The translations under genes and the position numbers were made by a program. Positions 16,761-17,824 of a stretch of DNA of 64,000 bases are shown piece by piece. The stretch is taken from assembly GCA_000708525.1 (NCBI GenBank), contig JMRP01000005.1, positions 1-64,000 of the forward strand. The letters are read 5' to 3'. The notes beneath the pieces were generated by a model. It was given only the letters and a program-made list of their open reading frames with translations, was not told where the DNA came from and did no database searches. This stretch comes from Cyanobium sp. CACIAM 14 (lineage in GTDB: Bacteria; Cyanobacteriota; Cyanobacteriia; PCC-6307; Cyanobiaceae). How positions within the stretch are numbered: position 1 is the stretch's first letter; every line of letters begins with the position of its first letter.

Positions 16761-17282
16761 ATGACCTACGACGCCTTCACCAGGGTTGTTGCCCAAGCTG
16801 ATTCCCGCGGTGAGTTCCTCAATGCCGGTCAGATTGATGCTCTTTCCGCCGTTGTGGCTGATAGCTTCAAGCGTCTTGATGCCGTCAATCGCATCACCTC
16901 CAATGCCTCGAAGCTGGTGACCAATGCGGCACGTGATCTGTTCGAACAGCAACCGGCCCTGATCGCTCCCGGTGGTAATGCCTATACGCACCGCCGCATC
17001 GCTGCCTGCCTCCGGGACCTTGACATCATCCTGCGCTATGTCAGCTACGCCATTTATCTGGGTGACGCTTCGGTGCTTGAGGATCGTTGCCTGAACGGCC
17101 TGCGGGAAACCTATCTGGCCCTTGGTGTGCCAGGGGGATCCGTTGCCGAGGGGATCCGCAAGATCAAGGATGCAGCCATCGCGCTGGTGCTCGATCGCAA
17201 TGGCATCACCCCTGGCGACTGCTCGGCGCTGGCTTCTGAGATCGGCACCTATTTCGATCGGGCTGCCGCCGCTGTCAGCTGA
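16761..17282 (+). CDS. cpcB: C-phycocyanin beta subunit, methionine-free variant
   Basis: Light-harvesting phycobiliprotein of the phycobilisome rod; pairs with CpcA. It is 173 residues with bilin-binding Cys83 (AACLRDLDIILRY) and Cys154 (ITPGDCSALASE), the usual third Cys110 (EDRCLNGLRETYL), and the methylated-Asn site GGNAYT. The only Met is the initiator: positions usually Met are replaced here (RRIAACLRDLD for RRMAACLRDM, RKIKDAA for KMKEAA). This is the substitution pattern expected of sulfur-sparing phycocyanin, as in the Calothrix PCC 7601 cpc3 operon. No linker, lyase or other phycobilisome gene lies nearby. Expression under sulfur starvation is inferred. Confidence 0.97.
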   Translation: MTYDAFTRVVAQADSRGEFLNAGQIDALSAVVADSFKRLDAVNRITSNASKLVTNAARDLFEQQPALIAPGGNAYTHRRIAACLRDLDIILRYVSYAIYLGDASVLEDRCLNGLRETYLALGVPGGSVAEGIRKIKDAAIALVLDRNGITPGDCSALASEIGTYFDRAAAAVS

Positions 17283-17332
17283 TCCACCGCTACCACCCTG
17301 CATCCCTCACGTTCACCTATCACTTCCGAACC

Positions 17333-17824
17333 ATGTCCAAGACACCCCTTACCGAAGCCGTTGCAGCTGCCGACTCTCAAGGGCGCTACCTGAGCAACAC
17401 TGAGCTCAACGCTGCTTTCGGCCGATTTGAAAGGGCAGCCAATGCCCTGGCCGCCGCCAAGGCCCTCACAGCCAAGGCTGATGAGCTTGTCAACGGTGCC
17501 GCCCAGGCCGTCTATGCCAAGTTTCCCTACACCACTCAGCTTCAGGGACCCAACTACGCCTCTGATGCCCGCGGTAAAGCCAAGTGCGCCCGGGACATCG
17601 GCTACTACCTGCGCCATATCACCTATTCGCTCGTAGCCGGCGGCACCGGCCCCCTGGATGACTATCTGATCGCCGGTCTCGATGAAATCAACAGAGCCTT
17701 TGAACTTTCCCCCTCCTGGTACGTGGAAGCCCTGAACCACATCAAGGCGAACCACGGCATCCAGGGAGACCCTGGTGTCATCGCCAACAACTACATTGAC
17801 TACGCGATCAATGCGCTTGTCTGA
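17333..17824 (+). CDS. cpcA: C-phycocyanin alpha subunit, methionine-free variant
   Basis: Alpha partner of the preceding beta subunit, 163 residues, 50 bases downstream. It has the bilin-binding Cys85 (GKAKCARDIGYYLR) and no other Cys; the only Met is the initiator. Usual Met/Cys sites are changed: FPYTTQLQG for TTQMQG, GYYLRHITYSLV for LRMVTYCLV, TGPLDDYL for GPMDEY. Other canonical segments (TPLTEAVAAADSQGR, SPSWYVEALNHIKANHG) are intact, so the protein should fold and assemble. Together the two subunits spend only four sulfur atoms beyond the initiators, three of them for chromophore attachment. A terminator follows. Confidence 0.97.
   Translation: MSKTPLTEAVAAADSQGRYLSNTELNAAFGRFERAANALAAAKALTAKADELVNGAAQAVYAKFPYTTQLQGPNYASDARGKAKCARDIGYYLRHITYSLVAGGTGPLDDYLIAGLDEINRAFELSPSWYVEALNHIKANHGIQGDPGVIANNYIDYAINALV

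Follow-up and report, generated by a model that had tools for sequence, protein, structure and literature searches.

We analysed a window of 64,000 nucleotides, part of a 122-kb contig (C5) of the Cyanobium sp. CACIAM 14 draft genome (3.21 Mb, 71 contigs), and identified in it two adjacent, intact reading frames for the beta and alpha subunits of phycocyanin, cpcB and cpcA (Table 1). The phycobiliprotein domain PF00502 spans the full length of both subunits and the bilin-binding cysteines are kept, which identifies the products as phycocyanin. The initiator is the only methionine in either protein; CpcB has three cysteines, two at bilin sites plus Cys110, and CpcA has one, at its bilin site. 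This composition was read correctly, at the exact coordinates, in an initial annotation made from the sequence alone, and the replaced motifs that it named are all present (RRI, DLD and RKI in beta; TTQL, YLRH, TYSLV and GPLD in alpha). Absence of internal Met from both subunits and near-restriction of Cys to the bilin sites, beta Cys110 being the one extra, is the composition of Cpc3-like phycocyanin.

Sulfur-sparing phycocyanin is a textbook case of elemental sparing, which to our knowledge rests on one filamentous strain. Calothrix PCC 7601 reportedly makes such a phycocyanin, Cpc3. The Calothrix Cpc3 operon includes sulfur-poor rod linkers, is induced by sulfur starvation, and its products are built into phycobilisomes. 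An operon of that type was not found here: the contig of the window has no rod linker (PF00427), all seven matches in the genome lying on contigs C14, C41, C61, C2 and C31. The earlier statement that the pair stands alone is sound for linkers; for lyases it holds among the scanned neighbours, where none showed. Upstream of cpcB and on the opposite strand lies a small open reading frame with a Nif11 domain (15997–16323), and one resembling it by eye occupies the same position in a related genome (L140, 8286–8543).

The surroundings are rich in sulfur genes, as had been proposed: the window encodes two sulfate-binding proteins, CysT, two CysA-type ATPases, an SLC13-type transporter, cysK, cysE, an encapsulin and its cargo cysteine desulfurase (CyD). 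The cysK-cysE-srpI-cyd cluster together with sulfate uptake genes gives the region the gene content of an srp-type island, and the kinds of genes in the srp region of the Synechococcus elongatus plasmid pANL (cysK-epsC-srpI-cyd, a chromate transporter, MgtC and Rrf2) recur in the window. The plasmid differs in that no phycocyanin gene is annotated in 39 kb of its 46 kb and CpcB had no match among pANL records. The window's own encapsulin cluster lies 19 kb from cpcBA on the opposite strand. Regulators comprise two Crp-family, two Rrf2 and one LysR protein. The first sulfate-binding protein is itself sulfur-poor (one Met, the initiator, and no Cys in 350 amino acids). Further genes encode a flavoprotein resembling sulfide:quinone reductase (1563–2831; NF049943 224 bits, below the cut-off of 525) and, as judged by eye, parts of a contractile phage-tail-like or injection particle with a tail-sheath-like N-terminus (54836–62302).

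Table 1. Features of the phycocyanin locus and its sulfur-gene surroundings (positions in the window).
Feature	Position	Strand	Remarks
CysT sulfate permease	5136..6044	-	TIGR02139 365 bits
CysA-type sulfate ATPase 1	6189..7211	+	TIGR00968 420 bits
Crp/Fnr-family regulator 1	7979..8554	-	PF13545; top NCBIfam hit PtrA at 61 bits, well short of the cut-off (300)
Sulfate-binding protein	9329..10381	+	TIGR00971 299 bits
Putative Crp-type box, 18-mer with TGT-N10-ACA	16559..16576	+	17 nt before core element
Core element RTGACYYTTTGTRA	16592..16605	+	sole window match at up to one mismatch; 0.05 expected
cpcB, sulfur-poor phycocyanin beta	16761..17282	+	173 aa; PF00502 174 bits; CpcB clade 100/98
cpcA, sulfur-poor phycocyanin alpha	17333..17824	+	163 aa; PF00502 166 bits; CpcA clade 96/85
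Intrinsic-terminator-like hairpin with T run, 3' of cpcA	17925..17954	+	read from sequence
CysA-type sulfate ATPase 2	21723..22712	+	TIGR00968 396 bits
SLC13/DASS-type anion transporter with TrkA-C domains	24033..25760	-	PF03600, PF00939; TIGR00785 below its cut-off
Crp/Fnr-family regulator 2	30390..30959	-	PF13545
Second sulfate-binding protein	31222..32775	+	TIGR00971 267 bits; match covers residues 209–512, upstream part of the ORF doubtful
MetX homoserine acetyltransferase	34904..36247	+	NF001209 423 bits
Encapsulin cargo cysteine desulfurase (CyD-type)	37142..38752	-	NF041166 814 bits
Family 2A encapsulin shell (SrpI-type)	38685..39614	-	NF041162 523 bits; 73.5% to SrpI of S. elongatus pANL
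cysE/epsC-type serine O-acetyltransferase	39737..40729	-	NF041874 153.7 bits (cut-off 150); TIGR01172 161.7 bits, below its cut-off
cysK, cysteine synthase A	40726..41805	-	TIGR01139 434 bits
Second-best window match to the cpcB-derived box model	41836..41853	-	31 nt upstream of cysK

Composition relative to ordinary phycocyanin

The parent family of the pair is the ordinary cpcBA rod genes of picocyanobacteria, to which it is roughly 80–91% identical. The ordinary genes differ in having internal Met in all 54 CpcB counted and linkers nearby at 37 of 55 loci, and no Crp-type box was found with them. A Met/Cys count against the main cpcBA of the same genome had been suggested, and this rod pair is unassembled: contig C41 stops 30 codons into an ordinary cpcB with a rod linker adjoining, which cuts the main rod operon, and the assembly contains no second cpcA. 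Because the main rod cpcBA is missing, the comparison is limited to a lone ordinary CpcB on contig C9, with six internal Met, and to the Met-containing pairs that Synechococcus sp. GFB01, CCALA 015, Cruz CV13-4-11 and V. limneticus carry besides their sulfur-poor pair. The window CpcB differs from the C9 protein at 29 of 169 compared sites, among them all six internal Met, and none was gained (P = 0.0009). Between the ordinary and sulfur-poor proteins of GFB01, six of six Met are replaced in CpcB (P = 0.0005) and three Met and one Cys in CpcA (P = 0.0004), again with no gain; the same test gave P values of 0.0005 to 0.007 in the other three genomes. Met/Cys counts in GFB01 are 9 and 5 for the ordinary pair and 3 and 1 for the sulfur-poor pair. 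With initiators set aside and the ordinary pair of GFB01, the nearest relative, as reference, the sulfur atoms per alpha-beta unit fall from 14 to 4, a loss of 10.

A full-length CpcB was readable at 54 of 67 other loci and none of the 54 has fewer than three internal Met. CpcA without internal Met was found at 7 of the 66 other loci counted, L040 included. The beta subunit is thus the clearer signal, since Met-free CpcA occurs at other loci and none of the 54 CpcB counted there is Met-free. In rows starting with LMK (L040, L056, L057, L059, L060, L062 and L063) the Met counts are one too high, which leaves these conclusions unaffected. Five pairs, at L040, L041, L048 (WH 5701), L050 and L055, have a CpcA with no internal Met and one Cys and a CpcB that keeps three to five Met. 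Their place in the CpcA tree, next to the sulfur-poor clade, would suit an alpha subunit that was purged first or copied back. Rod linkers adjoin the pairs of L040, L048 and L050.

Lone cpcB genes were seen in other settings as well. An ordinary cpcB without cpcA lies directly upstream of an ammonium transporter gene in three genomes, namely on contig C9 (L010, 9765–10352) and at L194 and L195, and L034 and L039 carry further cpcB-like matches with no adjoining cpcA, at about 7 and 8 kb downstream of their sulfur-poor pair.

Related pairs and the origin of the composition

Ten related genomes carry the pair (loci L033–L039, L074, L140 and L144). In a scan of one genome per species (84,980 species), 283 relatives of CpcA were found, the best 80 of which correspond to 77 loci; eight of these (L033–L039, L074) have no internal Met in either subunit and belong to the window's clade, CpcB being unreadable in six of the 77, and one further locus, L106, has a Met-free pair of the other, Cpc3-like lineage. 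L140 (genome G268) and L144 (G090) came from a survey of the family that covered 300 genomes. The pair is present in 11 of these 300 genomes, our own included, and in 8 of the 25 listed from the genus of the window; the 11 are matches beginning at residue 1 whose fetched stretches were re-read, so that any pair whose N-terminus differs would escape the count, and several coincide with the genomes of the named loci. Internal Met is absent and Cys limited to one in 31 of the best 120 of 3074 CpcA hits; of the best 120 of 5493 CpcB hits, 24 lack internal Met and two have a single one. Database relatives with one internal Met (CpcA P0026, which groups with L037, and CpcB P0245 and P0252) make the purge less than absolute in the wider group. 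The set of eleven pairs used below, that of the window and its ten relatives, was chosen for the absence of internal Met; L100, with one internal Met per subunit, a long branch and no sulfur gene found, was excluded. Judging by the names of the relatives, the host is likely a freshwater picocyanobacterium. Six records of the plasmid database PLSDB match cpcB (best 72.5%); no sulfur-poor cpcB was seen among them, their Met and Cys being uncounted.

Across 14 comparisons of the window with seven relatives (NG86), dN/dS is 0.037–0.072 for CpcB and 0.022–0.071 for CpcA, so both are working genes under purifying selection. An ordinary extra copy of phycocyanin whose low Met and Cys content is mere drift is an explanation to which we give hardly any credence. 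The rod CpcA of the five relatives described above does lack internal Met too; but neither subunit of the eleven pairs has any (the property for which they were chosen) at a dS to the window of about 0.7–1.5 where computed, no other CpcB counted comes close, and genomic context and promoter differ. At L074 (9360–12333), from a Synechococcus lacustris MAG, the sulfur-poor pair adjoins an ordinary, Met-containing linker, and the sulfur-poor CpcB is the sole CpcB match at E 1e-70 in the genome taken to be that of this locus (G044). Possibly the sulfur-poor pair serves as the main phycocyanin of this organism, unless a second copy is missing from the assembly.

Sulfur genes flank the pair in 8 of the 10 relatives and in none of 55 other picocyanobacterial cpc loci, or of 67 others in all. 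Queries for this count came from the window and L106, and both L106 and L100 were left out of it; median flanks were 20.5 kb for the eight named loci and 14.0 kb for the others, and at 18 kb or more the others still gave 0 of 26. The Fisher p value of 9e-9 (8/10 vs 0/55) overstates the association, because the relatives are not independent. In L033, L034, L036, L039 and L144, cysK-cysE-srpI-CyD lies upstream of the pair and shares its strand; in the latter four the gap between CyD and the pair is 0.36–0.48 kb and holds no ORF of 100 amino acids, and in L033 it is 3.9 kb and holds larger ORFs. The pairs of L035, L037 and L038 lie near MetX and sulfate-binding or SLC13 genes. No sulfur gene was found in the flanks examined of L074 and L140, which, like the ordinary linker beside the L074 pair, counts against a sulfur-driven exchange of phycocyanins. 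These neighbours also bear on the idea that the purge guards the antenna from Met and Cys oxidation under high light or redox stress instead of saving sulfur. Losing Met and a free Cys would indeed give such protection, and Cys110 is lost in L038 and L074. The genes found around the pairs, however, serve sulfate uptake, cysteine synthesis and the encapsulin, and 9 of the 11 pairs keep Cys110; we regard oxidative protection as improbable.

Phylogenetic analysis places the eleven pairs within picocyanobacterial phycocyanin. In the CpcA tree (58 rows, bootstrap not fully settled) they form one clade (96/85), nested in a clade of 16 rows (100/98) that also holds rod genes from WH 5701, Morenito 9A2 and others, while Cpc3-like CpcA form a separate clade (100/100). 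Joining the sulfur-poor and Cpc3-like CpcA clades costs 47 log units (AU p 0.003). In the CpcB tree (57 rows) the clade of eleven has support of 100/98, and a single sulfur-poor clade is likewise rejected (AU p 0.005). The groups in the AU tests were named after a first quick tree, and the Met and Cys columns were kept in the trees. The Calothrix PCC 7601 sequence itself is outside the trees, with proteins from named Calothrix and other Cpc3-like proteins as stand-ins.

The residues that fill the purged sites differ as well: CpcA columns 95, 99 and 108 are H, S and L in all eleven picocyanobacterial rows, and I, A and I in 115, 115 and 114 of 115 Cpc3-like rows. Descent of the window pair from Cpc3 was rejected on the AU tests and these three sites. 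From one clade inside picocyanobacterial phycocyanin, the AU rejection and the differing residues, sulfur-poor phycocyanin likely evolved at least twice. A more elaborate version of common origin has the pair stem from the same Cpc3-like sulfur-poor gene, by transfer or ancient inheritance, followed by gene conversion towards local phycocyanin. Both groups do lack the same Met and Cys and begin with MSKTPLTEA, and the Cpc3-like pairs of L106, L173, L174 and L176 likewise lie near cysK and sbpA; against it stand the AU tests, with the reservation on group naming above, the three columns, and an identity of window CpcA of 75% to the Cpc3-like CpcA of Scytolyngbya vs 89% to ordinary CpcA of GFB01. 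We consider this version very unlikely. Calothrix cpc3, which had been cited as the precedent, holds as an analogue, with no internal Met and few Cys, and not as an ancestor: in trees with Cpc3-like proteins, of the kind that had been proposed, the window pair falls outside their clade.

The Cpc3-like clade shares with the window pair the lack of internal Met in nearly all members and an essentially bilin-only Cys content, and some members adjoin cysK and sbpA as sulfur genes adjoin the pair here. The window pair differs in forming its own clade, in its replacement residues, in the extra beta Cys110 and in having no linker genes. At least one linker with no internal Met and no Cys was present at 7 of 12 fetched Cpc3-like loci, the other five coming from one genus, one of them on a 4.5-kb contig. 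An example is the 288-amino-acid rod linker that follows the Cpc3-like cpcBA of L106 (11045–11911); L178, L181, L184, L187, L189 and L190 also have such linkers. A parallel to the window is seen in the genus of those other five Cpc3-like loci, where cysK and sbpA (L173, L174, L176) or cysK only (L175) occur near a linker-less pair. Cpc3-like CpcA is widespread: a search with the Scytolyngbya protein gave, among its best 120 hits, 115 that lack internal Met and have one Cys, and sulfur-poor CpcA is common in the phylum, unicells such as Gloeothece verrucosa and Cyanothece PCC 7425 included. At E 1e-84 the Scytolyngbya protein matches 17 of 386 genomes of the phylum, several by Met-containing ordinary genes, so this is no count of Cpc3.

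Upstream elements

The upstream DNA of the eleven pairs is mostly unalignable between subgroups, except for a TGT-N10-ACA palindrome followed by RTGACYYTTTGTRA. The TGACYYTTTGT part of this core element was considered as a sulfur-specific switch and rejected, since 15 of 71 ordinary cpcB starts also have it in the 400 nt that precede them. The palindrome is more specific. It lies 16–17 nt before the core, exact in 9 of the 11 sulfur-poor loci and with one mismatch in L035 and L074, and is exact in none of 13 distinct ordinary cpc promoters that contain the core. Scored with a weight matrix built from the eleven boxes, none of 67 ordinary upstream regions reached 13.5. Outside the cpcB promoters the matrix gave 16 hits in 239 kb of sulfur-poor loci; the 797 kb taken from 53 other picocyanobacterial loci yielded 5 and five Markov simulations 0–2; in 117 kb from eight other stretches of the window's own genome there was none. 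Six of the 16 hits lie at most 400 nt upstream of queried genes (cysK twice, a chromate-type transporter twice, sbpA/Rrf2, where the box sits between sbpA and an Rrf2 gene, and a CadD-type/SBP-like gene), another four, from related genomes, fall between cysK and cysE, two precede cpcB by 355 and 468 nt, and the last four fit no group. When whole groups were left out of the model, the box was the best site in its 350 bp for the ten other loci but not for the window, which counts against it. On pANL of S. elongatus neither cysK nor srpI had a model site nearby; in 39 kb of that plasmid, scanned with a flat base background that was not used elsewhere, the one match of at least 11 bits is near a catalase gene. 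No Rfam family was found in the window at gathering scores, nor at the locus up to E 1.

By its sequence the box is a candidate site for a Crp-superfamily protein, perhaps a CysR-like regulator or NtcA, and the two Crp/Fnr genes of the island are, from their position, candidates for reading it. NtcA of cyanobacteria binds sites of the type GTA-N8-TAC. The box might therefore be an NtcA or general Crp site, with the pair answering nitrogen or another limitation and sulfur saving secondary. Three of the boxes (L036, L074 and L144) match GTA-N8-TAC exactly. The remaining eight deviate (four GTG-N8-TAC, two GTG-N8-CAC, and GTT-N8-TAC in L035 and L038), other hits of the model are near cysK, sbpA and chromate-type transporters, and the ammonium transporter gene of the same genome has one GTA-N8-TAC upstream that scores only 7.1, with none upstream of this gene in L194 and L195. 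On this evidence a primary role in nitrogen or other limitation appears unlikely, though of some weight.

Proposed sulfur saving and the encapsulin cluster

We propose, with a probability of roughly 0.73, that the locus encodes a second Met-purged phycocyanin pair that arose separately within picocyanobacteria, is placed among sulfur genes and likely replaces ordinary rod phycocyanin when sulfur is scarce. The sulfur-sparing role that had been assigned to the pair is supported beyond composition by the ten related pairs, their sulfur neighbourhoods, purifying selection and a Crp-type box absent from ordinary promoters; a common sulfur-poor origin with Cpc3 is what the AU tests reject. Mechanistically, a Crp-family regulator would bind the TGT-N10-ACA box under sulfur limitation and drive the cpc core promoter. 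The new subunits, with their bilin cysteines kept, would be chromophorylated by the ordinary lyases of the cell and stack on ordinary linkers; the sulfur cost of each alpha-beta unit, initiators not counted, would then drop from 14 atoms to 4. The neighbouring cysteine and encapsulin pathway may receive the sulfur that is set free when ordinary phycocyanin is degraded.

A more specific scenario, whose odds we put at about even, is an independent reinvention wired into the sulfur-encapsulin regulon: a copy of the rod operon would have lost its linkers, kept the core promoter and gained a sulfur-responsive Crp box, and would rebuild the antenna at less than a third of the sulfur cost, with the desulfurase in the encapsulin recycling sulfur of the dismantled ordinary one. 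A study of S. elongatus (PMC8049743) reports that SrpI and CyD rise upon sulfate starvation, that phycobilisomes are degraded during it, and that SrpI-bearing cyanobacteria come from fresh or brackish water. The same study describes no growth defect of SrpI and CyD knock-outs under sulfur starvation (PMC8049743), which makes the encapsulin link physiologically weak.

Through Calothrix Cpc3, sulfur-sparing phycocyanin is already a known kind of protein. A separate origin inside an encapsulin-type sulfur island, combined with an additional promoter box, was not encountered in our searches, and among the titles and abstract openings of the open-access literature no paper describing such a picocyanobacterial pair was found. 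A second, separate origin would provide a replicated natural experiment, for example in GFB01 and CCALA 015, on whether a shortage of sulfate shapes protein composition by selection. With a promoter in two parts the regulatory step can be put to the test, and the adjacency gives the sulfur encapsulin a candidate partner.
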